From: Myxococcales bacterium
Lineage (GTDB): Bacteria; Myxococcota_A; UBA9042
NCBI GenBank assembly: GCA_009692425.1
Contig: SHZF01000001.1
Span: 62,001-126,000, forward strand
Length of the DNA stretch: 64,000 nucleotides
Direction of reading: 5' to 3'
Below are positions 22,538-63,267 of the stretch, piece by piece (the first letter of the stretch is position 1; each line of letters begins with the position of its first letter). The notes beneath the pieces are model-generated. The model was not told the DNA's origin. It was given only the letters and a program-made list of their open reading frames with translations, and ran no database searches. The position numbers and the translations under genes were made by a program.

Positions 22538-24313
22538 TCAGCCTTTCGTGAAGACGTACGACTGGCTGAAGGATTGCGGGCTGGGAAGGATCGGCAGGCC
22601 GCGAATCGCCGAGAACTTCGACTTGATGCAGTCCTCGAAGCTGCCGGTTGCGCCGCCGACGCTGACTTCGGTGATGGTGCCCGCCGTGCCGACTATGAAC
22701 ATGACCTTGACCTTGCCCGACAGGTCCGGGCTGTCCTTCAACGCCATTTCGTAGCAGCGCTGCACGGCCGAGTTCTTGCGCGAGATGACCTTGGCGACGT
22801 CGGCCTTGCCCTCGCCGCTGCCCTCCATGCCGAAGTTCTGCATGTCGATCTTGACGAGCTGCTCCTGCTTTTTCGCCTCGACTTTCGTGGCGTCGGCATC
22901 GCGCTCGCCAAAGCCCTTGGCGCCGCCGCCCGCGACCTTTTCCATTGTGCCGCCGCCGCCTCCGCCGCCCTCGAGCTTGAGCGCGCCGCCTGGTCCATTC
23001 AAGTCGTCGCCGCCGCTGTCGCCACCAAACGTCTTGGCCACCACGGTGCCTTCTTCGCCGTCGCCTGCTGCTCCGAACAGTTTCGTCGCCGCACCCGCTG
23101 ACCCGACGAGCGCTCCGGCGATCGACCGTTTCACCACGGCTTCGCGCGCCTGGCGCTTGAGTTCCTCCGGGTCGATCTGCTTGCCGACAGACTGGGGCTT
23201 CTCCTTGGGCGGGACCTTCTTCTTTTCTTCGTCCTTCTCCTTTTCCTGTTCCTTCTTGGCCTGTGCCGAAAGGATGTCGATCTTGGGCTTGTCCTCTTTT
23301 TCTGGCTCCTTCTCTTCGACGAGGACCTCGTAGGTCGAGTTCGCCAATTCTTCCTCGATCGCGCTCTTTTTCAAGAACTTGCCTGTCGTTCGATGGAACA
23401 GGATGGCCTGACCGACGATCGATCCGACCAGCAGGAATGCGATTGCGACAGACACCGTCCAAGCGGAATCCGCGACGAACGGCGACGCCAGTTGACCCAG
23501 CAGCGACTTGCGCGGCACCGCAGGCACCGTGATCGTCTGCTTGAGTATCTGGAACAGCAAAGTATAGGGGCCCAGCGACGCCCGGCCACGCGCCTTCAGC
23601 GGCAGTGACAACTGCAGGGTGTCGCCTTCCAGGCGCGCCAGACCTTTCTGGATGGCCTCCTTTTCGTCAATTGGCAGTGCGCCATCCAACGCGAGCCGCA
23701 CGCCGCAGCCCCTTGGCAGGGCGACGGTGTAATTCGACGTGCCGCGCGGCGGTGTGAACACAGCCGGCGACCCCTTGTACTCGACGTCGGGCAACGCGAT
23801 GGTCGAACGGCCCGACGTCCCAATCGTCACGAAGTCCTTGCCGCGGAACACCTGGTCCGACAGCAGTCGGTCGTCGTGGACGAGGCCGATGCGCAGGACG
23901 GTCTCTTCGCGCGTGACGGTGGGCACCGAATCGCCGCGCACGAACTGGAACATCAGGATGATGTCTTGCCGGGCCACGCTGCCGCCGGTAAAGGCGTCGA
24001 TCGGCACGGCCCTGGTGCCCTTGATGGTCACCGCCCGGGCCTTGGCCGACTCTGCCGCTCCCGGTGCTCCGCCCCGCAACGTCAGGTCCGCGTCGCGCTC
24101 CGCCGGGACGACCGCGTGGTAGGCACCGCCGTGCAGCAGCGCGAGCGCCACGTGCACGGGGAAGTCTGGATAATCCTTTGCATTCACCTGTACCGTGCAA
24201 TCCGGCCGGGAACCGACGGTGATATCGACGCGCCGGTCCAACACCCGCTCTGCAACGATCTGCCCGCGGAAGACCACGCCGATGCGGAGCACGCGGGTCG
24301 TATCCAAGGCCAT
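22538..24313 (-). CDS. FHA-like/transmembrane protein with AgmX/PglI (TonB-like) tail, paralogue 1
   Basis: A 591-residue protein. Two related beta-rich modules, at about 8-125 and 133-245, each begin 'LRIGVVFRGQ' or 'LRIGLVHDDR' and look like degenerate FHA domains. A transmembrane helix follows at about 275-298 (AWTVSVAIAFLLVGSIVGQAIL). Then come a Lys/Glu-rich linker (about 315-390), a Gly-rich part (about 420-470), and a C-terminal AgmX/PglI domain from about 508 with RCYE and DCI cysteines. This is the layout of M. xanthus GltG/GltJ-type proteins that reach across the periplasm. Its last 249 bp are nearly identical to those of the neighbouring paralogue. Confidence 0.87.
   Translation of the reverse strand: MALDTTRVLRIGVVFRGQIVAERVLDRRVDITVGSRPDCTVQVNAKDYPDFPVHVALALLHGGAYHAVVPAERDADLTLRGGAPGAAESAKARAVTIKGTRAVPIDAFTGGSVARQDIILMFQFVRGDSVPTVTREETVLRIGLVHDDRLLSDQVFRGKDFVTIGTSGRSTIALPDVEYKGSPAVFTPPRGTSNYTVALPRGCGVRLALDGALPIDEKEAIQKGLARLEGDTLQLSLPLKARGRASLGPYTLLFQILKQTITVPAVPRKSLLGQLASPFVADSAWTVSVAIAFLLVGSIVGQAILFHRTTGKFLKKSAIEEELANSTYEVLVEEKEPEKEDKPKIDILSAQAKKEQEKEKDEEKKKVPPKEKPQSVGKQIDPEELKRQAREAVVKRSIAGALVGSAGAATKLFGAAGDGEEGTVVAKTFGGDSGGDDLNGPGGALKLEGGGGGGGTMEKVAGGGAKGFGERDADATKVEAKKQEQLVKIDMQNFGMEGSGEGKADVAKVISRKNSAVQRCYEMALKDSPDLSGKVKVMFIVGTAGTITEVSVGGATGSFEDCIKSKFSAIRGLPILPSPQSFSQSYVFTKG
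22550..22798 (-). repeat. 249-bp tract shared with 24778-25026 (copy 1)
   Basis: This end of paralogue 1 matches 24778-25026 at 246 of 249 positions. The three differences are one ATA/ACG codon change (two bases) and one TCG/GCG change. It encodes the AgmX/PglI tail. Outside the tract the two genes quickly become hard to align at the DNA level. Confidence 0.95.
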
Positions 24314-24765
24314 CCCAGAAGCTCCCGGGCCGAAGCCCACCGATTCCAAGCGAGACACACAGTTGCGGGTACTGACGGGCGGCCGCCCCTGCCGATGCCG
24401 CAGAACGCCATGCTACTTACGCGTGACGCGCGGTGTCAAACAACAAACGCAAGCAGTGGGCAGACTCGCGCGGCCTCTCGAGCAGCGTGATCGCGTTGCT
24501 CGTTCCACCACTTCGACGCCCCACGAGTCGTTTCGATCCCGGAAGCTTGCCGCGCCTTCACATTCTCACACGCGGGCGGGACACTCTCACAGGGGCGGGC
24601 GCGCGGCTGCGGCAAGTTGTGGAACTGGCGCGGTGCATCCGGAATCGCCCGCGGCCCGCAACCGACCGCTCAGCCGGGCTGGCGGCCGTGCTACTCGACC
24701 AACCGGACCCTGTAGGCAGAGATTCAGCCCATTCGAGCCGGGATTCAGGCCGCTTGAGCGGGGAT
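24314..24765. other. gap between the two AgmX-tail genes
   Basis: 452 bp without a gene. Near the paralogue 1 start lies a minus-strand promoter (24410-24439). Directly behind the paralogue 2 stop lies a 21-bp imperfect tandem repeat (24721-24769). The middle part is GC-rich with no recognised signal. Confidence 0.6.
24410..24439 (-). promoter_or_regulatory. probable sigma-70 promoter of AgmX-tail paralogue 1
   Basis: On the minus strand, a perfect TTGACA (24439-24434), an 18-bp spacer and TAGCAT (24415-24410). The start codon lies about 97 bp downstream. Confidence 0.55.
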
Positions 24766-24769
24766 TCAG
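24721..24769. repeat. 21-bp imperfect tandem repeat behind AgmX-tail paralogue 2
   Basis: Two 21-bp units beginning GATTCAG (24721 and 24742) and a third GATTCAG at 24763, which covers the stop codon of the minus-strand gene. The units share about 15 of 21 positions. One unit contains the small palindrome CCGCTTGAGCGG. Confidence 0.8.
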
Positions 24770-26544
24770 TTCTTCGAGAAGACGTACGACTGGCTGAAGG
24801 ATTGCGGGCTGGGAAGGATCGGCAGGCCGCGAATCGCCGAGAACTTCGACTTGATGCAGTCCTCGAAGCTGCCGGTTGCGCCGCCGACGCTGACTTCGGT
24901 GATGGTGCCCGCCGTGCCGACCGTGAACATGACCTTGACCTTGCCCGACAGGTCCGGGCTGTCCTTCAACGCCATTTCGTAGCAGCGCTGCACGGCCGAG
25001 TTCTTGCGCGCGATGACCTTGGCGACCTCGCCCTTGCCTTCGCCCTCGCCGCCCGACATTTCGCCGGCAGACAGGTTGACCTTGACCGCCGCCTCTTCCT
25101 TCTTGGCCTCGACCTTCACGTCGTCGGCCTTGCGCTCGCCAAAGCCCTTGGCGCCGCCGGTCTTGACCTTCTCCATCGTGCCGCCGCCGCCGCCGCCGCC
25201 CGCCAGCTTGAGGCCACCGCCCGGGCCCTCGCCCTTGTCGCCGCCAGCGGCGCCTCCGAACGTCTTGGCGACCACCGTGCCGTCTTCGCCGTCGCCTGCG
25301 TCGCCGAACAGCTTTGTTGACGCGCCACCGGCCGCCAACAGGGCTCCAGCAATCGAGTTTTTCGTGATGGCAGCGCGAGCCTGGCGCTTGTTCTCTTCCG
25401 GATCGATAGCCTTGCCCGTGGAGATGGGCTTGTCGGGAGCCTTGTCTGGCGCCTTGTCCGCTGCCTTCTCCTTCTCCTTGGCCTTCTCCTTGGCCTTGAC
25501 TTCGACCGGCACGATTTCCTGCGATTCCTTTTCCGGCTCCTTGTCTTCTTCCTCCGGCTTGATCTCTTCTTTCTGCTCGACCTGTACCTCGTACGTCGAG
25601 TGCGCCAGTTCCTCGTCGCTCTTCGCCTTGCCGAGGTACTTGCCGGTGGAACTCTGGAACAGGATCGCCTGACCGACCACGCCGCCGACCAGCAGCAGCG
25701 ACGTCAGGAACGACACGGTCCACGTCGGTTCCCCGAGGAACGGGCTGGTGATGCGCGCCAAGGTCGAGCGCGCCGCGAACGCAGGCACGATCACGGTCTG
25801 CTTGACGACCTGGAACAAGATCGTGTGCTGGCCCATCTGGGCACGGCCGCGCGTCCCGAGGCCAAAGTGCGCGATGATGTCGTTGCCTTCCTGGCGGGCC
25901 TTGCCCTTGCCCATCAGGTCCTTCAGCTCCATCGGGGAGCCGTCGACCGCCATCTTCACCTTCATGTTGGCGGCGCAACGCATCGTCACCGAACCATCCT
26001 TGTGGTTCGTGAACGAGATCGGCGGACCCTGATAGTCCTCTTCCGGCAACACGATCGAGTTCACCTTTTCGGTGCCGATCGACACTCCCTTCACATCGGG
26101 AAAGATGCGGTCGCTGATAAGCCGCTCGTCGTATACGAGGCCGATGCGCAACACGACGCGTTCGTGCGTCATCGTCGGCTGCGAATCGGCGCGAACGAAC
26201 TGGAACATGATCGATACATCGCCGATCGACACCGAGCCGCCGGCAGCGGTCTCGATGGGAATCGCGCGCTTGCCCTTGATGGTCTTCGTCTCGGTCGTGC
26301 CGGCGCCGCGCAAGCCGATGCGCGCGGCCGGGTCGGCGGGAACCACCAAGTGGAACTGGTTGTTTTCAATGGCCAGCAAGTCGATGCTGTCCGGAAAATC
26401 CGGGTACTGCTTGACCGGAATCTGGATCGTCGATCCGGCCCGCAGGCCGATCGTCACGTCGATGCGGCGATCGAGCACTTCTTCATGTACGATGCTGCCG
26501 TGATACACCACGCCGATGCGGACGTTGCGGTTGGCGCTGCTCAT
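24766..26544 (-). CDS. FHA-like/transmembrane protein with AgmX/PglI (TonB-like) tail, paralogue 2
   Basis: A 592-residue paralogue of the protein at 22538-24313, with the same order of parts: two FHA-like beta modules (VRIGVVYHGS... and VLRIGLVYDER...), a transmembrane helix at about 275-298 (WTVSFLTSLLLVGGVVGQAIL), a Lys/Glu linker, a Gly-rich segment and the AgmX/PglI tail. ATG 26544 fits the first beta strand. A TTGACA-type promoter lies 95 bp upstream. In M. xanthus, proteins with this tail work with the AglRQS motor, and a similar motor set lies at 54493-56925 in this window. That partnership is inferred. Confidence 0.87.
   Translation of the reverse strand: MSSANRNVRIGVVYHGSIVHEEVLDRRIDVTIGLRAGSTIQIPVKQYPDFPDSIDLLAIENNQFHLVVPADPAARIGLRGAGTTETKTIKGKRAIPIETAAGGSVSIGDVSIMFQFVRADSQPTMTHERVVLRIGLVYDERLISDRIFPDVKGVSIGTEKVNSIVLPEEDYQGPPISFTNHKDGSVTMRCAANMKVKMAVDGSPMELKDLMGKGKARQEGNDIIAHFGLGTRGRAQMGQHTILFQVVKQTVIVPAFAARSTLARITSPFLGEPTWTVSFLTSLLLVGGVVGQAILFQSSTGKYLGKAKSDEELAHSTYEVQVEQKEEIKPEEEDKEPEKESQEIVPVEVKAKEKAKEKEKAADKAPDKAPDKPISTGKAIDPEENKRQARAAITKNSIAGALLAAGGASTKLFGDAGDGEDGTVVAKTFGGAAGGDKGEGPGGGLKLAGGGGGGGTMEKVKTGGAKGFGERKADDVKVEAKKEEAAVKVNLSAGEMSGGEGEGKGEVAKVIARKNSAVQRCYEMALKDSPDLSGKVKVMFTVGTAGTITEVSVGGATGSFEDCIKSKFSAIRGLPILPSPQSFSQSYVFSKN
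24778..25026 (-). repeat. 249-bp tract shared with 22550-22798 (copy 2)
   Basis: Direct repeat of the tract at 22550-22798, offset 2228 bp and in the same orientation. The near identity includes third codon positions, which implies recent gene conversion or recombination between the paralogues. Confidence 0.95.
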
Positions 26545-26645
26545 GGGTCCCTCGCTGTCGGTGGAGCGCACGCGGTCTGTCGAGCACGCGGCGTCTTTCG
26601 GAGGCTCTGCGGCGGGTCGGCGGTTGGACGAGGCTCAGCGCGGCG

Positions 26646-54164: not shown

Positions 54165-54492
54165 GCCGCACCTCCGCCCAGCGCAGAACCGCAAGGCCAC
54201 GGGGACGTACCCGACGCACCCGGGCACCGTCAACGGCCTGCGCGCCGAACCCGCCCGTCAGGATTGTCGGCATTCGCGGTGGCGCGCCCACTTGACCCCC
54301 GGGAATCACGGATGCTAAATACCCGACCGTTCGGCTCGTCCGTCTGGGCGCGCGGTGTCGAGAAGCACCGCCCACGCCCCCGACTCGAACCTCGGGGATG
54401 GTCCTTGAGCGAATCGGCGGACGAGCGGAATCTTCATCCCGACCGGGATGACGCTGACGTCCTTGCTAGGCACAACCAGGAGCAGAAGACCG
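54165..54492. other. divergent regulatory gap before the exbB operon
   Basis: 328 bp with no supported gene. It holds the ribosome site of the minus-strand TPR gene and a plus-strand promoter at 54292-54321. The leader after that promoter would be about 165 nt and contains several GC-rich inverted segments, but no known riboswitch was recognised. Confidence 0.55.
54292..54321 (+). promoter_or_regulatory. probable sigma-70 promoter of the exbB-exbD-exbD operon
   Basis: TTGACC at 54292-54297 and TAAATA at 54316-54321 with an 18-bp spacer, the same spacing as three other promoters in this window. The AT-rich -10 stands out in GC-rich DNA. Confidence 0.6.
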
Positions 54493-55158
54493 ATGTTTCA
54501 CAAGATTGCCGAGATCTTCGAAGAAGGCGGCTGGGGCATGTGGCCGATCCTTGGCCACCTCGTCTTCATTCTGGCCATCATGTTCGAGCGCATCTTCGTG
54601 CTCTACATTCGGTCGAGCGTGAAGAAGGAAGAGTTCATCAAGCTCCTCCAGGTGCCGATCCTCAAGGGTGACCTCAACCGCGTGCTCAAGGTCTGCTCGA
54701 CCTACCAGTACCCGCTGGCGCGCATCGTGCACGCCGGTGTCCTCAAGGTGAAGCGCTCCGACGATGAAGTGCAGGCCGCGATGGACGAGGCGTACTTGCG
54801 CGAGATGCCGCAGATTGAAAAGCGCGTCGACTACCTGAACTTGCTCGGCAACACGGCGACCCTCGCTGGTTTGCTCGGCACGATCACGGGTCTGATCAAC
54901 ACGTTCGCCGCGATCGGTCGCCCGGACGTCGACCCGTCCCAGCGCTCGACGCTGCTGTCGCAAGGCATCTCCGAGGCGATGAATTGCACCGCATTCGGCT
55001 TGGCCACCGGCATCATTGGCGTTCTCGCATTCGCCGTCCTCGCCTCGAAGGCGAAGGAGCTGAAGGCCGACATCGATGAAGGCACGGTTCGCGTGCTGAA
55101 TCTGATCGTGGCGAATCGGAACAAGATGGGCGACATCAAGGAAGAGAACGCCGCCTAG
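54493..55158 (+). CDS. ExbB/TolQ/AglR-type proton channel protein
   Basis: A 221-residue MotA/TolQ/ExbB-family membrane protein. Three helices are seen. The first is at about 15-38 (MWPILGHLVFILAIMFERIFVLY). The second and third lie at about 118-145 and 165-190, with the family block 'LLGNTATLAGLLGTITGLINTFAAIG' and 'GISEAMNCTAFGLATGIIGVLAF'. These proteins form the proton-conducting stator that drives TonB, Tol or gliding partners. ATG 54493 was chosen because upstream codons lie before the first helix and are not family-like. Two ExbD-type genes follow, as in aglRQS of M. xanthus. Confidence 0.93.
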   Translation: MFHKIAEIFEEGGWGMWPILGHLVFILAIMFERIFVLYIRSSVKKEEFIKLLQVPILKGDLNRVLKVCSTYQYPLARIVHAGVLKVKRSDDEVQAAMDEAYLREMPQIEKRVDYLNLLGNTATLAGLLGTITGLINTFAAIGRPDVDPSQRSTLLSQGISEAMNCTAFGLATGIIGVLAFAVLASKAKELKADIDEGTVRVLNLIVANRNKMGDIKEENAA

Positions 55159-55612
55159 CCGGTTCGCCGGGTAGTCGTCTCCGGTTCTCGAGAGCTCCAG
55201 CGCCGCGCGTGCCGGAGCGGAATCGCGTTGAGCGCATGACTTCGCTGCGTACCGCAGTCCCGGGGCCACCTCGTGCTCCCGGGGCTGCGGGCGCAGACTC
55301 GCTCGCAGCGCATGGTCAGGGCGAGTTGACGGCGTGGGCTCTGACGGCAAAGGTCCGTCGGTGCGGCAGTCGTCACGCATCGGCCCACCGGTCTGCGCGT
55401 TGGCTTACAAGCTCACGCGGTGGCTCACATAATGGTTAACGTACTCCGTTTGCTTCGCCAGACCACCGCAGTGCCGGCCACAGTGCCGGCCACAGTGCCG
55501 GCCACAGTGCCGGCCACAGTGCCGGCCACAGTGCCGGCCACAGTGCCGGGGGGTCGAGTGACGAGGAAGCGGTCAGTCCCGGGCCGGCAGCGGCTGTCGG
55601 CAGGAGAAGCTC
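55159..55612. other. gap between exbB and the first exbD gene, with tandem repeat
   Basis: 454 bp with no convincing gene. It contains the 12-bp tandem repeat at 55469-55552 and an AGGAG ribosome site just before 55613. A 69-codon frame (55420-55629) reads through the repeat as repeating Pro-Ala-Thr-Val; it overlaps the exbD start and lacks a ribosome site, so it is not called. The gap is long for genes whose products should act together. Confidence 0.6.
55469..55552 (+). repeat. 12-bp tandem repeat, six exact copies plus a partial
   Basis: The unit CAGTGCCGGCCA is repeated six times without change from 55469 to 55540, followed by a diverging seventh. Each unit contains the palindrome GCCGGC. 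It lies in the leader of the exbD genes, 61 bp before the first exbD start. Confidence 0.98.
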
Positions 55613-56236
55613 ATGGGTGGCGGAAGTAGCGGAAAGGGCGGTGTAGCGGACGCGACCCTGAACGTCGTTCCCTTCATCGACCTGCTGGCGTGCACCATCT
55701 GCTTCCTGCTGGTGTCCGCCGTGTGGTCGCAGATGTCGAAAATCGACGTCGATCAGGCGTTGCCGAAGGCGAGCAAGACTCCGCCCAAGGATCCGCCGAA
55801 GCCTGAGCCGAAGATCAACGTTGCGGTGACACCGACCGGCTATCTGGTCAACTTGTTCAATGCCGACAAGATGGCGACGCCGCGGGCCGAACTGGTCGCT
55901 CCGCTCAAGATCAATACGGTGGGCGAGTTCAAGCTGTGCCGCGGCAAGGGTAGCGTTGCCGATTGTCGGGGCTCGCTCGAAACGTTCAAGCGCTATGACA
56001 AGGCAAAGCTCAAGGAGACGCTGATCGGCTTCATGAAGGCCGCGGCTCTCGGCGGCGACAAGATCAAGGTCATGGTCGCGGCCGGCGACAAGGTGCAGTA
56101 CTTACACCTGATTGGAACGCTCGACGCGATCCTGGGCACCTGCGAAGTCGAAACTGACCGATCGACGTGCCTCAAGAGTCCGAGCGTCGGCGACATCAAC
56201 CTGCTGCGCGCGGAAGGCTTCACGACGTTCGACTAG
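55613..56236 (+). CDS. ExbD/TolR-type protein 1
   Basis: A 207-residue ExbD-like protein. A short cytoplasmic N-terminus is followed by one helix with the essential acidic residue (LNVVPFIDLLACTICFLLVSAVW; the Asp is at about residue 23). A Pro/Lys-rich periplasmic linker (KTPPKDPPKPEPK) and a periplasmic domain follow, the latter containing 'KIKVMVAAGDKVQYLHLIGTLDAI'. An unusual block carries Cys residues (LCRGKGSVADCRGS). It would pair with the ExbB-type protein to form the ion-conducting stator. An AGGAG site lies 6-7 bp before ATG. Confidence 0.9.
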   Translation: MGGGSSGKGGVADATLNVVPFIDLLACTICFLLVSAVWSQMSKIDVDQALPKASKTPPKDPPKPEPKINVAVTPTGYLVNLFNADKMATPRAELVAPLKINTVGEFKLCRGKGSVADCRGSLETFKRYDKAKLKETLIGFMKAAALGGDKIKVMVAAGDKVQYLHLIGTLDAILGTCEVETDRSTCLKSPSVGDINLLRAEGFTTFD

Positions 56237-56352
56237 TCCGGTCGGGGCTCAACCTCCGCCGGTCTCTTCGGCTTGGCATCCTAGGGAATCGGCGACTCGG
56301 TCGCCCAGGCAACTCTCAGCGACTCCGTCGCTCAGGTACTTGAGGTAATCAC

Positions 56353-56925
56353 ATGGCCGTTCACCACCCCGGCTCCCGCGCAGGAACAGGCGTCGCACTC
56401 AAGTCGATCCGCGAAGCCGTCATTCACGGCGGTCATGGCGGCACGTTCGCCTCGCTGAACGTCGTCCCGATGATCGATCTCTTCATGATGCTCGTGATCT
56501 TCCTGATTCAGCAGTTCAGCGCATCGGGCGAACTCATGCTGGTCAATCCGAACGTCGCGATGCCGAAGGCCGGAGCCAACGCGGAACTGCTGCGGGCACC
56601 GATGATTGCGTTGACACGAGGCGACGGGAACCAGCCCGGCGACCTCCTGTTTGAGAACAACCGCATCTTGAGCCTCGGCGATGTGAACGAGGTAAAGTTC
56701 CCGAGTTGGGACATCAAGCCGCTGGCCGACGTGCTCAAGAAGCAGTGGCAACTCCAGCAGCAGTCTTCGGACGTCAAGCAGAAGTCGATCCGCAAGGTCA
56801 TCATCCAAGCCGACCGCACCGTGCCGTTTCAGGTCATCAAGATGGTGATGGCGACGTGCGGCCGCAACGAGTTTCGCGAACCGAACTTCGCGATCATGGT
56901 GAACGCCAAGGGCGACGAGGGTTAG
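56353..56925 (+). CDS. ExbD/TolR-type protein 2
   Basis: A 190-residue ExbD-like protein distinct from the one before it. The helix carries Asp in LNVVPMIDLFMMLVIFLIQQF (about residue 42). The periplasmic domain has 'KSIRKVIIQADRTVPFQVIKMVMATCGRNEFREPNFAIMV', the standard ExbD sheet-helix-sheet. Two different ExbD proteins with one ExbB is the composition of the M. xanthus AglR-AglQ-AglS motor and differs from the single ExbD of TonB systems. The 116-bp gap before it contains two near-identical copies of a GCGACTC-GTCGC segment. Confidence 0.92.
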   Translation: MAVHHPGSRAGTGVALKSIREAVIHGGHGGTFASLNVVPMIDLFMMLVIFLIQQFSASGELMLVNPNVAMPKAGANAELLRAPMIALTRGDGNQPGDLLFENNRILSLGDVNEVKFPSWDIKPLADVLKKQWQLQQQSSDVKQKSIRKVIIQADRTVPFQVIKMVMATCGRNEFREPNFAIMVNAKGDEG

Positions 56926-56996: not shown

Positions 56997-57749
56997 GTGG
57001 CAGGTCAGGCGGGCACGATCGGGTGGGCCCGCCGCATGGCCGGTCGCGCCCTCGCGCTGGTGGCGCTAGCCTCCATAATCGCGCTCGCCTACGCTACCGA
57101 AGCCCACGCCAAGCCGACGACGCGTGTGTACCTGAACGGCGTGCCGACCCCAGTGTTTTTCAGCGATGGCGACAGCTTCACCGTGATGGGCGGGCCCATG
57201 GCGGGGTCGCGGACGCGTCTGGCGGGCTACAACTCCCTGGAGAGCTTCGGACCGGCGCACCGGTGGGGTGCCTGGAACTCCCACGAACTCTACATCAACT
57301 CGAAGATGGCCACGCTGAACGCCCGCCGCGGTGTGTGGCGCTGCACCTCGGACCTGCGGCGGGACGGCTACGGCCGCACCTTGTGGGACTGCCCCGACCT
57401 CGCCTTGGATCAGGTGCGGGAGGGACTGGCGCACGCGATGACGGTCACGGACGATCCCGCGCCGGCGCACTTGCTTACCGCGCAGGTGGCTGCGATCGCC
57501 GAACGGCGCGGCATGTGGGCAAAGGGCGTTCCAACGCATGTCTTGACCTCGCTGCACTCGAACGACGAGGGCTACGAGGGAACCACCTACAATCGCCTCG
57601 TTTCGGTCCAAGACGGGCACTCCGTCAAGTGGCTCCACAAGGATAACTACCCGGAATGTTTTGAAGTGTGCCATGAGGGCGGTTCGTGCATGGTCTACGT
57701 CACGATGAACCGACGCTATGGAGGTTCTCGTGCCGCGTGCGTGCGGTGA
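56997..57749 (+). CDS. exported staphylococcal-nuclease-like protein
   Basis: A 250-residue protein with a signal peptide ending in 'ATEAHA'. The SNase-type fold is seen: FFSDGDSFTV (Ca-site Asp), 'SRTRLAGYNSLESFGP' carrying the Arg and Glu of the active site, and 'RRDGYGRTLW' carrying the second Arg. 'LLTAQVAAIAERRGMW' forms the last helix. The position of SNase Asp40 appears to be Asn. About 60 extra residues with three cysteines follow the domain. GTG 56997 is chosen for a GGAGG site 5 bp before it. It lies in the operon after exbD 2; nuclease activity is probable but not proven. Confidence 0.77.
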   Translation: MAGQAGTIGWARRMAGRALALVALASIIALAYATEAHAKPTTRVYLNGVPTPVFFSDGDSFTVMGGPMAGSRTRLAGYNSLESFGPAHRWGAWNSHELYINSKMATLNARRGVWRCTSDLRRDGYGRTLWDCPDLALDQVREGLAHAMTVTDDPAPAHLLTAQVAAIAERRGMWAKGVPTHVLTSLHSNDEGYEGTTYNRLVSVQDGHSVKWLHKDNYPECFEVCHEGGSCMVYVTMNRRYGGSRAACVR

Positions 57750-57759
57750 AGGCTTGGTG

Positions 57760-58962
57760 ATGGGGAGTTCGACGCTATCATCCGGTTCGTCATGGCCGCG
57801 CGCATGGGCAGCGGTCGTCGCGGGTGCGTCGGTTGTGTCCGCATGCCAAGTTCCGTCGGGTGACCCGCCCGCTGGCTACGAAGCGGACGATCAGGCTTGC
57901 GACGACGGCATCGACAACGACCAGGACGGCCTCATCGATTGCATGGATGTCGATTGCCGCGTGGCATCGACGCTGTGCGGAGAGCGGGTGCCGCTGTACC
58001 GGAACTTCCAGCCGGAGAACGCGCCGGACACGTGCCACGATCAGGTCGACAACGACGACGACGGACTGTTCGATTGCGGCGACCGCAGTTGTTCGGATGT
58101 GCCGGAGACCTGTTGTCGCGTCGAGTTTTCGGACCGGCTCTGCAGCGACGGCATCGACAACGACAGCAATGGCTACACAGATTGTGGCGAATTTACATGC
58201 AAATCCGGATTCGTCGCGGTGTGCATGGATGAGCGCTATTGCCACTTGAAGCCGGACGGCAGCATCGTGCCTGACGACGCTTGCTGCAGCGACGGCAAGG
58301 ACAGTGACGGCGACGGCAAGACGGACTGTCTCGATTCGAATTGCGTCAGCGCCTGTCCCAAGGACGAGGAACTGAGTGTCGCTGCGTGTTCGGACGGCAA
58401 GGACAACAACGGCAACGGCTACGTGGACTGCAAGGATTTCGATTGTCTCAAGAGCAAGGACCCTGCGGTGGCCGCCCTGTGCGCGGTGCCTGTGACGCCG
58501 AAGCCGCCCGAGGATACCGAGGCGGCCTGCATGAACGGCAAGGACGACGATGGCAATGGGTATACCGATTGCGGCGACTTTTCGTGCACCGGGCTGTCGA
58601 TCGAGTCGGTGCAGGCGTATTGCTTGGAAAAGCTCGAAAACACATTCGCGAAGTGCCAAGACGGCAAGGACAACGACGGCAACGGCTACACCGATTGCGA
58701 CGACCGCAGTTGCCGTGCAGGCTACGTGACGTGCACGGACGCCGGACTGTGCGGCTATTTCACGACCAAGGATGTCGCGACTGCGCGAGCCTGCGTGGAG
58801 AGTGTCGCGTCGAGCGTCAAGGAAATGAACGAGTTGTGCTCGAACGGCCTCGACGAAGACCATGACGGGTTTGTCGATTGTGCTGACTTCGACTGCGCAC
58901 GCGCGCCCGGTGTGACGGTGTGTGCGGACAAGCCGCGGATGTGCGGCACCCAATGGAAGTAG
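57760..58962 (+). CDS. exported protein with eight Cys/Asp metal-binding-type repeats
   Basis: A 400-residue protein with an N-terminal signal and likely lipobox (VVSAC, about residue 29). Eight repeats follow, each with the pattern C-x-[DN]-G-x-D-x-[DN]-x-[DN]-G-x-x-D-C-x-[DE]-x-x-C, such as 'CDDGIDNDQDGLIDCMDVDC' and 'CQDGKDNDGNGYTDCDDRSC'. The D-x-[DN]-x-[DN]-G core is an EF-hand-like calcium loop, while the three cysteines per repeat suggest disulfide or metal bridging. Similar stretches are common in Myxococcota surface proteins and recall MopE-type motifs. The next gene carries three copies of the same repeat. Confidence 0.85.
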   Translation: MGSSTLSSGSSWPRAWAAVVAGASVVSACQVPSGDPPAGYEADDQACDDGIDNDQDGLIDCMDVDCRVASTLCGERVPLYRNFQPENAPDTCHDQVDNDDDGLFDCGDRSCSDVPETCCRVEFSDRLCSDGIDNDSNGYTDCGEFTCKSGFVAVCMDERYCHLKPDGSIVPDDACCSDGKDSDGDGKTDCLDSNCVSACPKDEELSVAACSDGKDNNGNGYVDCKDFDCLKSKDPAVAALCAVPVTPKPPEDTEAACMNGKDDDGNGYTDCGDFSCTGLSIESVQAYCLEKLENTFAKCQDGKDNDGNGYTDCDDRSCRAGYVTCTDAGLCGYFTTKDVATARACVESVASSVKEMNELCSNGLDEDHDGFVDCADFDCARAPGVTVCADKPRMCGTQWK

Positions 58963-58986
58963 GCCGCTGCGTAGATCGCCGCATTT

Positions 58987-59034
58987 GGCGGCTGACGATG
59001 AAGGCGGCTGACGATGAAGGCGGTGCACGATGAA
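58987..59034 (+). repeat. 16-bp triplicate repeat over the start codon of the barrel gene
   Basis: Units at 58987-59002 and 59003-59018 are identical (GGCGGCTGACGATGAA). The third, 59019-59034, differs at three positions and contains the ATG of the next gene. Each unit carries an ACGATGAA, so the initiation region is present in three copies. Confidence 0.9.
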
Positions 59035-60616
59035 TAACTTGACGCTCATGCGTGCACTCGCGGGACTTACGGCTGCGGCGGCGGTATGGGCGCCGGCCGC
59101 CTTTGCCATCGACGGCCCTGGTGCGGCGACGCCGACCGGCGCAGGTGCGGGCGGGGAGCTACGCGAGACCGTGTGCAGCGACCGTCGCGACGACGACGGC
59201 GACGGCCTAACGGATTGTGCCGACCACGACTGCGCGGGCAACGTTGCGTGCAACGTGGGCGCCGGAAGCGAGAACTCCGATGCGCGCTGCAGCGACTGGT
59301 TCGACAATGATGGCGACGGCTTCATCGATTGCGACGACGCCGACTGCGAAGGCGGCGCCGTGACCGTGTGCAAGGGCTCGTGGCGCGGCCCGCTCGACGG
59401 AGGCGCGGCTGCAGTTGGACCTCCGGAGGACGACATGCCCGAACTGAAAGAGGGGATGTCGGTCGAAGACCTGCTCGGCAAGGGCGCAGACAAGGACGGC
59501 GAGCGCAGCGACGAGGTGTGTTCAGACGGCTTGGACAACGACCGTGACGGGCGCATCGACTGCGCTGACCTCGGCTGTCGCTTCGACCCCGACGTCAACG
59601 TGTGCCGGAGCAGTCCAGGAATGCGCTTCAGCATCAGTGGCGCGATCGAGGCGTCGCACGAACTGGTGAAGTCGCAGTCCGACGTTCGGTTTTCCCGACT
59701 CCAACTGCGCACGTTCGGGCAGATTCCGGGCGTCGACAGTTCGTTCTACTACGTCGGCATGCGCGGAGAGCGCACGCCGCGGGTCACCTTTGCAATGTTC
59801 CAGGTGCCGATCGGTGCCCGCGGACACTTCATCGGCGTGAACAGCGGCGGCGGCGGCTTGTCGATGCAGCCGGTGCTGTCGTCGACGAAACACATGTTGA
59901 TCGAGCCAGCCTACTACGTGTACAGCGCGTTCCAGCCGGGCAACGGGGCCGCCGTCGAGGCATCGGGTCCGCTTGCCGAGACGCTGCGACTGGAATACCG
60001 CACCTACGTTGCTGGCGGTTCCGGTCGCTCGACGGGCAGCGTTGGCGGGACGTACTTCGTCAACGACGCACGCATCTTCACCTGGTCGACCGGCGTGGCG
60101 CTGCGGATCCATCCGTTCGGGTACATCAGCCGCCTGGAGTCGCCGTTCCTGTACACCCCAGCTGCGACGGCCCTTTCCATCGACTTCGGGGCGAAGTTCG
60201 ACCAACGGCCCCAAGAACGGTTCCCGGCCGTGCACGCAGGCACGTTTTTCCGATCCGGCCGATTCGTCGCTCTGGCCGAAGTCTATGCCAAGCGGAATCT
60301 CGACATCGATTTCGACGGCATCGCGTACAACGTCCAGGCGGGCTTTCTTGCGTGGCCGAAGCGAGTCCTGATTGCAGCAGATTTTGGCGAGTTCCTTGCG
60401 CGCGGCACCATGGCCGGGTTGAAGGACAAGCCGGACTCCGAGGTGAAGAAGCAGCGCGACGAACGCCAGTGGCGCGCCGCCGCGCACTACTTCTTCTACC
60501 GCAGCGTCGGCGTCCTGTCGGCGGTCTATCGTGACCGCACGTTGGCGCCGGCGATCGGCGACAGCGTTCCCACCCGGGAGCGCGAGGCCAGCATGATCGT
60601 GCAGTTCCACTTCTAG
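59030..60616 (+). CDS. outer-membrane beta-barrel protein with three N-terminal Cys/Asp repeats
   Basis: A 528-residue protein with a signal peptide (to about 27, AAFA). Three repeats of the same type as in the preceding gene follow ('CSDRRDDDGDGLTDCADHDC', 'CSDWFDNDGDGFIDCDDADC', 'CSDGLDNDRDGRIDCADLGC'). The rest (about 205-528) alternates amphipathic strands and ends with phenylalanine ('SMIVQFHF'), the usual outer-membrane barrel signature. It resembles porin-like families of Myxococcota. It probably ends the exbB operon. The repeat region should face the periplasm or the surface near the barrel mouth. Confidence 0.83.
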   Translation: MNNLTLMRALAGLTAAAAVWAPAAFAIDGPGAATPTGAGAGGELRETVCSDRRDDDGDGLTDCADHDCAGNVACNVGAGSENSDARCSDWFDNDGDGFIDCDDADCEGGAVTVCKGSWRGPLDGGAAAVGPPEDDMPELKEGMSVEDLLGKGADKDGERSDEVCSDGLDNDRDGRIDCADLGCRFDPDVNVCRSSPGMRFSISGAIEASHELVKSQSDVRFSRLQLRTFGQIPGVDSSFYYVGMRGERTPRVTFAMFQVPIGARGHFIGVNSGGGGLSMQPVLSSTKHMLIEPAYYVYSAFQPGNGAAVEASGPLAETLRLEYRTYVAGGSGRSTGSVGGTYFVNDARIFTWSTGVALRIHPFGYISRLESPFLYTPAATALSIDFGAKFDQRPQERFPAVHAGTFFRSGRFVALAEVYAKRNLDIDFDGIAYNVQAGFLAWPKRVLIAADFGEFLARGTMAGLKDKPDSEVKKQRDERQWRAAAHYFFYRSVGVLSAVYRDRTLAPAIGDSVPTREREASMIVQFHF

Positions 60617-60765: not shown

Positions 60766-63267
60766 TTGCAACGGTGGGGATTCTTGGCGGGCAGGGTGTG
60801 GGCACCGGGCGCAGCGGCAGCGACCGTGGGCGCCGCTGCCGGCGTCGCCGTGCCGTTGTGGTGGCCGCTGCTCGTGGCGCTGACGGTGTGGTGTGCTGCG
60901 TTGGCGGGATTGGCGTGGCGGGCACGTCGGGTCGTGGTCTGCCGGGCGGCTGCGTGGACGGCAATGAGCGCAGGCATGGGTTGCCTTGCCGCCCTGCCGG
61001 TCGAGCCCCTGCCCGTCGTTGTCCTCGCCCAGCCGACCGCCATCCACACGTTGGTCGCAGTCGAAGAGTCCACCGCGACACGCTTCGGCAGCCAGGTCAC
61101 GGTCGCTTGGCTCCGATCTGACCGCAGCGTGCCGTTCGCCGGTTCGCGGGCCCTGGGAGCCGTACGACTCACGATGCGCGCACCAGGATTCGTCGGCGCA
61201 GTTCGGTGCGGCGAAACCGTGCGTGTCGTCGGCCGAATGGAGCCTCTGGCAGGCTATGCCAACCCGCGTGCGTGGGATCCCCGGCCCGACGCCCTGCGCG
61301 CCGGAATCGCCGGGGTGCTGGACGTGGACGGGTCCGGGAGCCTGGCAGTCGTCGACGCACGTTGGTGGCGGCATGGGCTGGTCACCACTGCTCACTGCAC
61401 GCTGGCAAGGCCCTTTGGCCACGCCCGCCGCTACCTCGCGGCCCGGGTTCGCGCCAGCCTGCCCGCGTGGGAGGCTGGGGTCGTCAATGCGTTCGCGCTC
61501 GGCGACACGAGTTCCCTCGACCCGGCGCTGTCCGCGGTGCTCCGCGCCAACGGGACGGCACACATCATCGCCGTGTCGGGCAGCCACTTGACGTTGGTTG
61601 TCGCAGTCCTCGCCTGGTTCCTGGTGCACGCCATCGGGGCCGCGATGCCTGGCGTGTTCCGCCGCTGTTCCCGCCGCATGTGCCTCGCACTCGTCTGCGT
61701 GAGCGCGAGTTGGAGCTATGCGGCCCTCACCGGCGCTCCGCCAAGCGCCGTGCGGGCAGCATTCATGGTCTCGGTCGTCGGCGTCGTGCGCGCGACGGCT
61801 CACGCCGCCGACGTCGTCGAAGCGCTCGGCTTTGCGGTGTGCGCGATGATCGCCCTCGACCCGGAAACCGTGTGCGACGAAGGCTGGCTGCTGTCGGTCG
61901 CAGGGGTGATCGGTCTCTTGCGTGCCGGAGAATTGTGGCAGGCAGACGTCCGCGCGACCGCAACCCGGACGCTGGCTGGGCGGGTGCGTGCAGGGGTTGC
62001 CGGGTGCGCGCAGGCCAGCCTGGCCGCATCGATGGCGACGGCCCCCGTCGTGACGCTCGCATTCGGGAGCCTCGCCCTCACCGGACCCGTCGCCAACTTT
62101 TTCGCCGCACCGTACGCCGGCGCGATCGCATTGCCGTGGAGCCTCTTCGCAACCGGGGTCGCGGCCATCTCCAACGGCGCAGTCGCCTCAGCCACGGCCG
62201 CCGTCACCCCATGGGTCCTGTGGCCTCTGCGAGCGCTCGCATCGACTTCGCCGGCGGACTGGGCCGTGTGGTGGCCCGTGTCTCCGGGCGGCTGGTGCGC
62301 CGTGTGCGCCCTGCCGGCGTTGTTGTGGATGGCCTCGTGGACGGCGAAGAAGTGCGTCGCCATCGGTTGCGTCGGTCTTGTCGGGTTGGCCGGCGAGGGA
62401 ATGGCCCGGCACGACACTGCGCGGCCGCTCGTCGAAGCCTGGTTCCTCGATGTCGGCCATGGTGACGCCACGCTGCTGCGCCTGGCCGACGGGCGCACGA
62501 TGCTGGTCGATGCCGGCGGCGTGGCCGGCGACGGTGGCCGGAGTGGGGATCTTGCCGTGGCACCTGTCCTGCACGGCCTCGGGATCGGCAGAATCGACGT
62601 GCTGGTGCTCTCGCACGCGCACCCTGACCACGGCAACGGCCTGGTCTCCATCGTGCGCGCGTTCGACATCGGAGAGTTCTGGTGGAATGGCCAGGGCCCG
62701 CTGACGCCCGAGATCACGGCGGCCGTCGCAGAAATGACACGGCGACGGGTGCCCGTGCGCCGATTCGCCGCACGAGACCCCCGCATGTTCGCATTCGGCG
62801 CTTCGACTGTGCGCGTGCTGTGGCCTCGCGGGGTCGGGGCGCCGTTCGAGTCCCACCTCGGCCAGAACGACAACTCGCTCGTGCTCGAGGTGTCGATGGG
62901 GCCGACGCGCTTGCTCCTGACCGGGGACATCGAGTTCGCCGCGGAGTCGGCCCTGGTCGCCCGCGGTGCCGCTCGCCACGCCGACATCGTCAAGGTGCCC
63001 CACCACGGCAGCTTGACGTCGAGTTCGCCGGAGTGGCTTGCAGCCGTGAGTCCGAAGCTTGCCATTGCCAGCGCCCGGCCTTGGGCGCGGTGGCCGCTGC
63101 CACATTCCGAAGTGCGGGCCAGGTACGTCGCGGCTGGCGCTCCTTTGTGGGAAACGTGGCGCGGAATGGTCCACGTCGAGTTCGGTCCGGACGGCGTCGC
63201 CGCGTCACAAGGGGGACGATCGTTCCATTTGGCGCGCACCGTCCGCGCCTGTAGCGAGGGAACATGA
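60766..63267 (+). CDS. comEC: ComEC/Rec2 DNA-uptake channel
   Basis: An 833-residue protein of the competence channel family that moves single-stranded DNA across the inner membrane. An N-terminal hydrophobic block and OB-like part (about 75-165) precede the ComEC channel ('AFALGDTSSLDPALSAVLRANGTAHIIAVSGSHLTLVVAVL' and about ten helices). A C-terminal metallo-beta-lactamase domain starts at about 560 with FLDVGHGDATLL and SHAHPDHGNG, then 'LLLTGDIEF' and 'KVPHHGSLTSS'. TTG 60766 is the first start in frame; a later GTG is possible. The HxHxDH motif is complete, so the domain may be an active nuclease. Confidence 0.95.
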   Translation: MQRWGFLAGRVWAPGAAAATVGAAAGVAVPLWWPLLVALTVWCAALAGLAWRARRVVVCRAAAWTAMSAGMGCLAALPVEPLPVVVLAQPTAIHTLVAVEESTATRFGSQVTVAWLRSDRSVPFAGSRALGAVRLTMRAPGFVGAVRCGETVRVVGRMEPLAGYANPRAWDPRPDALRAGIAGVLDVDGSGSLAVVDARWWRHGLVTTAHCTLARPFGHARRYLAARVRASLPAWEAGVVNAFALGDTSSLDPALSAVLRANGTAHIIAVSGSHLTLVVAVLAWFLVHAIGAAMPGVFRRCSRRMCLALVCVSASWSYAALTGAPPSAVRAAFMVSVVGVVRATAHAADVVEALGFAVCAMIALDPETVCDEGWLLSVAGVIGLLRAGELWQADVRATATRTLAGRVRAGVAGCAQASLAASMATAPVVTLAFGSLALTGPVANFFAAPYAGAIALPWSLFATGVAAISNGAVASATAAVTPWVLWPLRALASTSPADWAVWWPVSPGGWCAVCALPALLWMASWTAKKCVAIGCVGLVGLAGEGMARHDTARPLVEAWFLDVGHGDATLLRLADGRTMLVDAGGVAGDGGRSGDLAVAPVLHGLGIGRIDVLVLSHAHPDHGNGLVSIVRAFDIGEFWWNGQGPLTPEITAAVAEMTRRRVPVRRFAARDPRMFAFGASTVRVLWPRGVGAPFESHLGQNDNSLVLEVSMGPTRLLLTGDIEFAAESALVARGAARHADIVKVPHHGSLTSSSPEWLAAVSPKLAIASARPWARWPLPHSEVRARYVAAGAPLWETWRGMVHVEFGPDGVAASQGGRSFHLARTVRACSEGT

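Follow-up and report, generated by a model that had tools for sequence, protein, structure and literature searches.

Gene conversion limited to one domain has been described for the bacterial release factors RF1 and RF2, in which, according to the sections of the report cited here, a sliding-window phylogeny found conversion limited to domain 3, the domain of shared function (Ishikawa et al. 2015, PMC4530459). For mammalian gene pairs, the cited part of Carson and Scherer 2009 describes concerted evolution over 100 million years, and the authors speculate on shared binding domains (PMC2720389). The closest described proteins are GltG and GltJ of Myxococcus, presented in the cited sections as TolA/TonB-like, driven by a TolQR-type motor and with a TonB-like end in the periplasm that may touch proteins of the outer membrane (PMC5349195, PMC3169522); GltG has a cytoplasmic FHA domain and binds AglR, the TolQ-like motor protein of the Agl-Glt gliding machinery (PMC3169522, PMC5349195). 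Here we describe two adjacent genes, A and B, in a stretch of 64,000 nucleotides of a Myxococcales bacterium (the window, G000:C132:62001-126000, in which G000 is this genome), taken from a 191-kb contig of a 4.94-Mb draft assembly with 137 contigs. Our reading, to which we assign a probability of roughly 0.85, is that A and B are an old pair of inner-membrane TonB/TolA-like energy transducers whose periplasmic halves have been repeatedly overwritten by ectopic gene conversion.

The matched 3' ends of genes A and B

The genes, the tracts, and the regions on which the argument depends are the following.

22538..24358, minus strand: gene A, encoding a tail protein of 606 amino acids (open reading frame; NCBIfam myxo_SS_tail, 46.7 bits; structure model; orthologues)
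24766..26571, minus strand: gene B, 601 amino acids, with the architecture of A and immediately upstream of it (open reading frame; myxo_SS_tail, 49 bits; orthologues)
22550..22798, minus strand: recently converted tract, A copy (identity, silent divergence, and codon test, given below)
24778..25026, minus strand: recently converted tract, B copy (same evidence)
22541..23200, minus strand: region of A that evolves in concert throughout the family, approximately residues 387-606 (change point at 387; quartets)
24769..25431, minus strand: matching region of B, with approximate limits read from the alignment (aligned-column analyses)

An earlier sequence-only reading of the window had noted that the last 249 bp of the two genes are nearly identical, silent sites included, and had proposed a recent gene conversion between the paralogues. 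Both statements stand. The two tracts agree at 246 of 249 positions, with mismatches at 22694, 22695, and 22783, and the strictest limits of the A copy are 22550-22782. Identity decays toward the coding side, and the other edge stops about 10 bases before the stop codon; a repeat finder gave 96% for the segments 22538-22816 and 24766-25044 and 74% for the following 300 nucleotides. The longest exact run shared by A and B in this genome is 144 bp.

Silent divergence is unequal inside and outside the tract: over their last 85 codons, A and B have a Nei-Gojobori proportion of synonymous differences (pS) of 0.025, and over the remaining 503 codons one of 0.543. Codons that encode the same residue are identical in 78 of 79 cases in the last 85 codons and in 154 of 261 elsewhere. 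When only degenerate codons are counted, all 78 in the tract are identical, against 42.5 expected from the codon usage of this genome (P ~3e-23). The silent identity of this fresh tract supports a recent conversion between A and B in this genome. In addition, pS falls to 0.3-0.4 across residues 454-513, and 55 of 78 codons at residues 401-515 are identical against 42 expected (z 3.1), which indicates that the recent tract borders on sequence homogenised earlier. To describe the two proteins as greatly different throughout their first 500 residues is therefore too coarse. At the threshold used, none of the columns in residues 440-606 sets A apart from B with the consistency needed to polarise the event, and neither a donor nor a direction could be assigned to the fresh exchange.

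Grouping by gene and by genome along the proteins

All 22 genomes of the family have matches in the tail-protein searches. Among the matches listed, to which all figures from these searches refer and from which some paralogues may be missing, A is found in 20 of 22 genomes, B in 21, and both in 20. The pair counts are based on n = 20, leaving out G012 (no A among the matches listed) and G019 (neither A nor B), and open reading frames longer than 640 amino acids were trimmed to their last 640 residues for the A-B comparison. The following parts of A are referred to below.

23489..24358, minus strand: cytoplasmic part, residues 1-290, with two beta-sandwich FHA-like domains, not homogenised (quartets by gene; Foldseek)
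23339..23467, minus strand: predicted long helix, residues 298-340, with the membrane segment, in the transition zone (low-confidence model; mixed quartets at 291-330)
22541..22849, minus strand: TonB/TolA-like C-terminal domain, residues 504-606 (model of the tail; fold search)

For each cross-genus pair of genomes (n = 164), we asked whether A joins the A of the other genome (grouping by gene) or the B of its own genome (grouping by genome). All 164 quartets group by gene at residues 1-150, as do 160 at residues 151-290 (genome 1, ties 3). The counts are mixed at residues 291-330 (gene 68, genome 54, cross 9, ties 33) and lean to genome at 331-400 (genome 75, gene 47, cross 5, ties 37). Grouping by genome is found in 164/164 at residues 401-460, in 155 at 461-515 (gene 2, cross 2, ties 5), and again in 164/164 at 516-606. 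With one genome per genus, the counts are gene 36/36 at residues 1-150, gene 35/36 with one tie at 151-290, and genome 36/36 both at 401-515 and at 516-606. If one change point between the two groupings is assumed, it is placed best at residue 387.

Phylogenetic trees give the same division. In body protein trees, A, B, and a further paralogue, C, each lie on one side of a branch, which is not so in the tail trees; in the tree of residues 1-290, A forms one side of a branch with a support of 100. For residues 401-606, constraining the A sequences together lowers the log-likelihood by 502, and this arrangement is rejected (approximately unbiased test, p-AU 5e-44). In the tree of these residues, A and B are sisters within G000, G001, G002, G003, G004, G006, and G018 and are intermixed in clusters of genera g6, g8, and g9, and at least 10 label changes are forced by the starred branches. 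The likeness of A and B of one genome (A_iB_i) is 0.861 in the tail versus 0.658 for the A proteins of different genera (A_iA_j), and in the cytoplasmic part the corresponding values are 0.419 versus 0.545. The clustering of tails by genome and not by gene in related genomes, which the sequence-only reading had suggested looking for, is thus what the relatives have.

Judging from these alignments and trees, A and B go back to an old duplication, and the periplasmic half, from about residue 387, is repeatedly homogenised in the family. A lineage-specific duplication of the whole pair was considered and is ruled out by the body tree, with A and B each on one side of a branch, together with the neighbourhood of A and B, which is widely conserved among the 20 family loci compared. 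The proposal that conversion is confined to the TonB-like tail describes the recent tract well, but over evolutionary time the affected part is larger and includes the periplasmic helix and the glycine-rich stretch. Eight class relatives (L026-L033) have shorter proteins of 453-523 amino acids that match mainly from profile position ~142-155 onward, as if they had one FHA-like unit instead of two; they could represent a single-unit ancestor.

The order of elements in gene A is two FHA-like domains, one membrane helix, a charged linker, a periplasmic helix, a glycine-rich stretch, and the TonB-like tail. Both proteins exceed the curated cut-off of 40 bits of NF033768 (myxo_SS_tail, the AgmX/PglI C-terminal domain). 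The gathering cut-off of Pfam TonB_C (PF03544), 24.6 bits, is missed, with 13.2 bits for B and A not listed, and Pfam FHA has no match in A or B. The structure model of A (mean predicted local distance difference test, pLDDT, 61; six sequences) contains beta-rich units at residues 22-141 and 147-279 and a long helix at 298-340. After a disordered segment come another helix (397-420), a glycine-rich stretch that is also disordered, and the folded tail (504-605), which reaches a pLDDT of 86 when modelled alone. In the fold search with this tail, TonB/TolA C-terminal domains occupy 18 of the 20 best rows at Z 5.3-6.9; these values are middling (below 8), so the argument from fold is carried by the enrichment of such domains among the best rows and not by Z. 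For the cytoplasmic part, the best Foldseek match is 1wv3 (E 5.7e-4), which we take to be the tandem-FHA end of EssC, followed by high-probability single FHA chains at E of at least 0.006. An FHA-like sensor and a TonB-like tail, as the sequence-only reading had named them, are made probable by fold comparison, but without reaching a Pfam cut-off. By analogy with GltG, the FHA-like half would be cytoplasmic and the tail half periplasmic. According to the anatomy of the model, the homogenised part starts just past the membrane helix and the charged linker, and its extent is that of the conserved periplasmic part.

Explanations for the homogenised half

We propose that the exchanges occur by homologous recombination, probably of the RecA type, between direct repeats that in this genome are about 2.2 kb apart. 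Purifying selection would keep the periplasmic halves alike enough to recombine, and the diverged cytoplasmic FHA-like halves would no longer do so. The last event in this genome, a replacement of some 250 bp at the 3' end, would be nearly fresh, and the silent signal of earlier events, in this and other lineages, would be mostly lost. A and B may link a proton motor to a periplasmic or outer-membrane partner by transmitting force or a signal, with a cytoplasmic control that differs between the two proteins. A plausible selective reason is that the same periplasmic module is shown to one shared partner while different cytoplasmic inputs are sensed, and the recurrence of the pattern through the family suggests that both proteins must keep fitting that partner.

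Two reasons for repeated conversion fit the data equally, namely a selected matching of the tails and a mechanical loop that leaves the conserved half alone able to recombine. The latter, by which conversion would follow neutrally from proximity and conservation and the boundary would be the limit of similarity, competes with the selective reason and not with conversion itself, and we consider it a serious contender with somewhat less than even odds. It fits nearly all observations: the homogenised tail is also more conserved between genera (A_iA_j 0.66 versus 0.55 in the cytoplasmic part), and a mechanical cause explains the boundary equally well. It fits less well with G010 (L048, L059), in which A lies in the conserved neighbourhood, B lies at a locus without detected neighbours common to the window, and yet the A and B tails are 95% identical in protein, so that adjacency is not strictly required, unless the last exchange predates the move. 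A second observation against it is that paralogue C, present in 14 genomes at a separate locus, partly follows with its tail alone. Residues 516-606 of C group by genome with A in 45/64 genome pairs and with B in 53/64; its residues 1-150 group by gene in 57/64 (A) and 46/64 (B), and its residues 151-290 in 35/64 and 31/64. Because the C rows have long branches, and some of them may be lineage-specific copies, the homogenisation of C is suggestive only. A further-reaching version of the selective reason would be a rule of one tail per cell, by which A, B, and partly C are kept tail-matched by recurrent conversion even after the genes separate, conversion itself being selected so that transducers with different FHA-type sensors follow one moving partner; we regard this version as doubtful.

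A different explanation replaces conversion by parallel adaptation, in which the tails of A and B track the same co-evolving partner through protein selection without exchange of DNA. In its favour are the affected region, which is the periplasmic one, and the combination, within genomes, of 76-95% protein identity between the A and B tails everywhere with a silent divergence that in 19 of 20 genomes is at the level of the body. The silent sites nevertheless make it improbable, beginning with the 78 identical codons of this genome. When the count is limited to codons at which all four sequences have the same residue, and this genome is excluded, the tail (516-606) gives 822 silent quartets by genome, 272 by gene, and 296 cross, so that the tails group by genome at silent sites too; this is hardly so in the cytoplasmic half (1-290), with 626, 565, and 562. 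For A and B of the same genome, codon identity exceeds expectation by 0.126 in the tail and by 0.050 in the cytoplasmic half. Within genera, the excess in the tail is 0.140 for A versus B and 0.143 for A versus A, and in the cytoplasmic half 0.064 and 0.137. A tail in which A and B of a genus are as close as A and A is the trace to be expected if conversions took place around the base of each genus.

Parallel adaptation also leaves unexplained the other TonB-like tails of the same genomes, which do not follow. Groups D and E have tails of the same NCBIfam domain as A and B, and these group by gene without exception (A-D 164/164, A-E 131/131, B-D 184/184, B-E 131/131, and D-E 145/145). This control took in 22 of 23 group D members and 19 of 32 group E members, and the group E tree 30 of 32. 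A cause common to all tails of a genome, whether base composition or a universal partner, is therefore ruled out as the origin of the A/B pattern.

Several observations weigh against repeated conversion. The fresh tract is known from a single draft assembly. The other 19 genomes have no recent tract: their A-B tail silent divergence is body-like, 0.31-0.80, and their longest exact A-B runs are 14-41 bp (the maximum between genera is 37 bp), so the fresh event is found only in this genome among the 20. The z of tail codon identity ranges from 0.2 (G017) to 4.0 (G010), against 8.4 in this genome. The tail silent excess is weak (z at most 1.3) in G003, G006, G008, G017, G018, and G021; the cytoplasmic part has a larger excess than the tail in G005, G017, and G021 and an equal one in G008. 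In these genomes, parallel amino-acid change is possible.

The weakest explanation is that the assembler put one tail sequence in both places, which is very improbable even for a genome in 137 contigs, since the copies differ at three sites of the tract, have distinct flanks on both sides inside a 191-kb contig, share no exact run longer than 144 bp, and show a tendency that recurs, in older form, in 19 other assemblies.

Tandem group E duplicates in one genus (L119, L120, and L121, of G016, G005, and G020) were considered as a second case of conversion and rejected, because their tails are diverging without fresh homogenisation. The tails have 67-73% protein identity versus 42-45% in the body, with 47/65 identical tail codons in G005, 44/71 in G016, and 44/66 in G020. 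These duplicates are lineage-specific in the body tree as well and are thus a poor control.

Tail cassettes of the A/B type also occur on short or unrelated frames at L076 (G008:C127), L077 (G003:C73), and L078 (G016:C214, 1833-4205, plus strand), three of the four stray tail loci having been compared (L079 was left out). Of the A/B tails, those nearest to the G008 cassette belong to its own genus (0.67-0.75). The frame of G016 also carries a radical-SAM region, as a fusion or an overlap of frames.

Neighbouring genes and comparison with known systems

Downstream of A are coaE, a gene of the NAD-dependent epimerase/reductase type, and a GGDEF-FHA gene. On the other side, a weakly CHAT-like gene (under the Pfam cut-off) points away from B and is followed by lumazine synthase and NusB genes. 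The genome has four matches of the MotA/TolQ/ExbB type, one of which lies in the window beside an ExbD-type gene.

54448..55158, plus strand: MotA/TolQ/ExbB-type proton channel subunit, TolQ-like, candidate motor (PF01618, 87 bits)
55613..56236, plus strand: ExbD/TolR-type subunit adjoining the TolQ/ExbB-type gene (PF02472, 41 bits)

A third frame after the motor genes (56353-56925, plus strand) appears ExbD-like by eye, and 54448-56925 (plus strand) is possibly a motor with two ExbD-like subunits. It is followed by two proteins with acidic double-disulfide repeats (57718-60616, plus strand; NF033662, 7 and 3 stretches) and by a ComEC-type competence protein with a metallo-beta-lactamase domain (60766-63267, plus strand); ComEC-type uptake would supply one source of recombining DNA.

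The pair offers a natural experiment on the persistence of gene conversion, with halves of different histories split near the membrane and with one fresh and many older events. If the matching is selected, the pattern implies a shared partner, which could be traced as proteins whose changes follow the joint A/B tail. Protein trees of TonB-like tail proteins, gliding families included, can mislead if they are built from full-length or tail alignments alone.

In the open-access literature searched, we found no report of conversion or concerted evolution in TonB-like or gliding-type proteins. A and B are predicted to resemble GltG and GltJ, as described in the cited sections, in having an FHA-type cytoplasmic part (GltG), one membrane helix, a periplasmic helical region, and a TonB-like C-terminus; with 88.6 bits (A) and 77.6 bits (B) against the GltG cut-off of 650 (NF033760), neither is filed as GltG. 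The tail of A resembles TonB/TolA C-terminal domains in predicted fold, but at Z values of just 5.3-6.9 and without reaching the Pfam TonB_C cut-off.

RF1 and RF2 are, like A and B, functionally divergent bacterial paralogues with domain-limited conversion. The cited part of that report gives two independent cases (PMC4530459), whereas for A and B the label changes within a single family number at least 10. A and B also differ in being membrane proteins, in having a fresh tract with silent identity, and in a boundary just outside the membrane helix. The mammalian pairs, as far as the cited sections describe them, are likewise old duplicates homogenised segment by segment in many lineages, but they comprise three gene pairs with intron similarity as the silent control (PMC2720389). 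In these sources, domain-limited conversion between paralogues (RF1/RF2) and lasting segment-wise concerted evolution (mammalian pairs) are already known; what A and B add is that the exchange recurs throughout a family, where its boundary lies, that one event is fresh enough for silent sites to be identical, and that older events are supported by silent sites as well.

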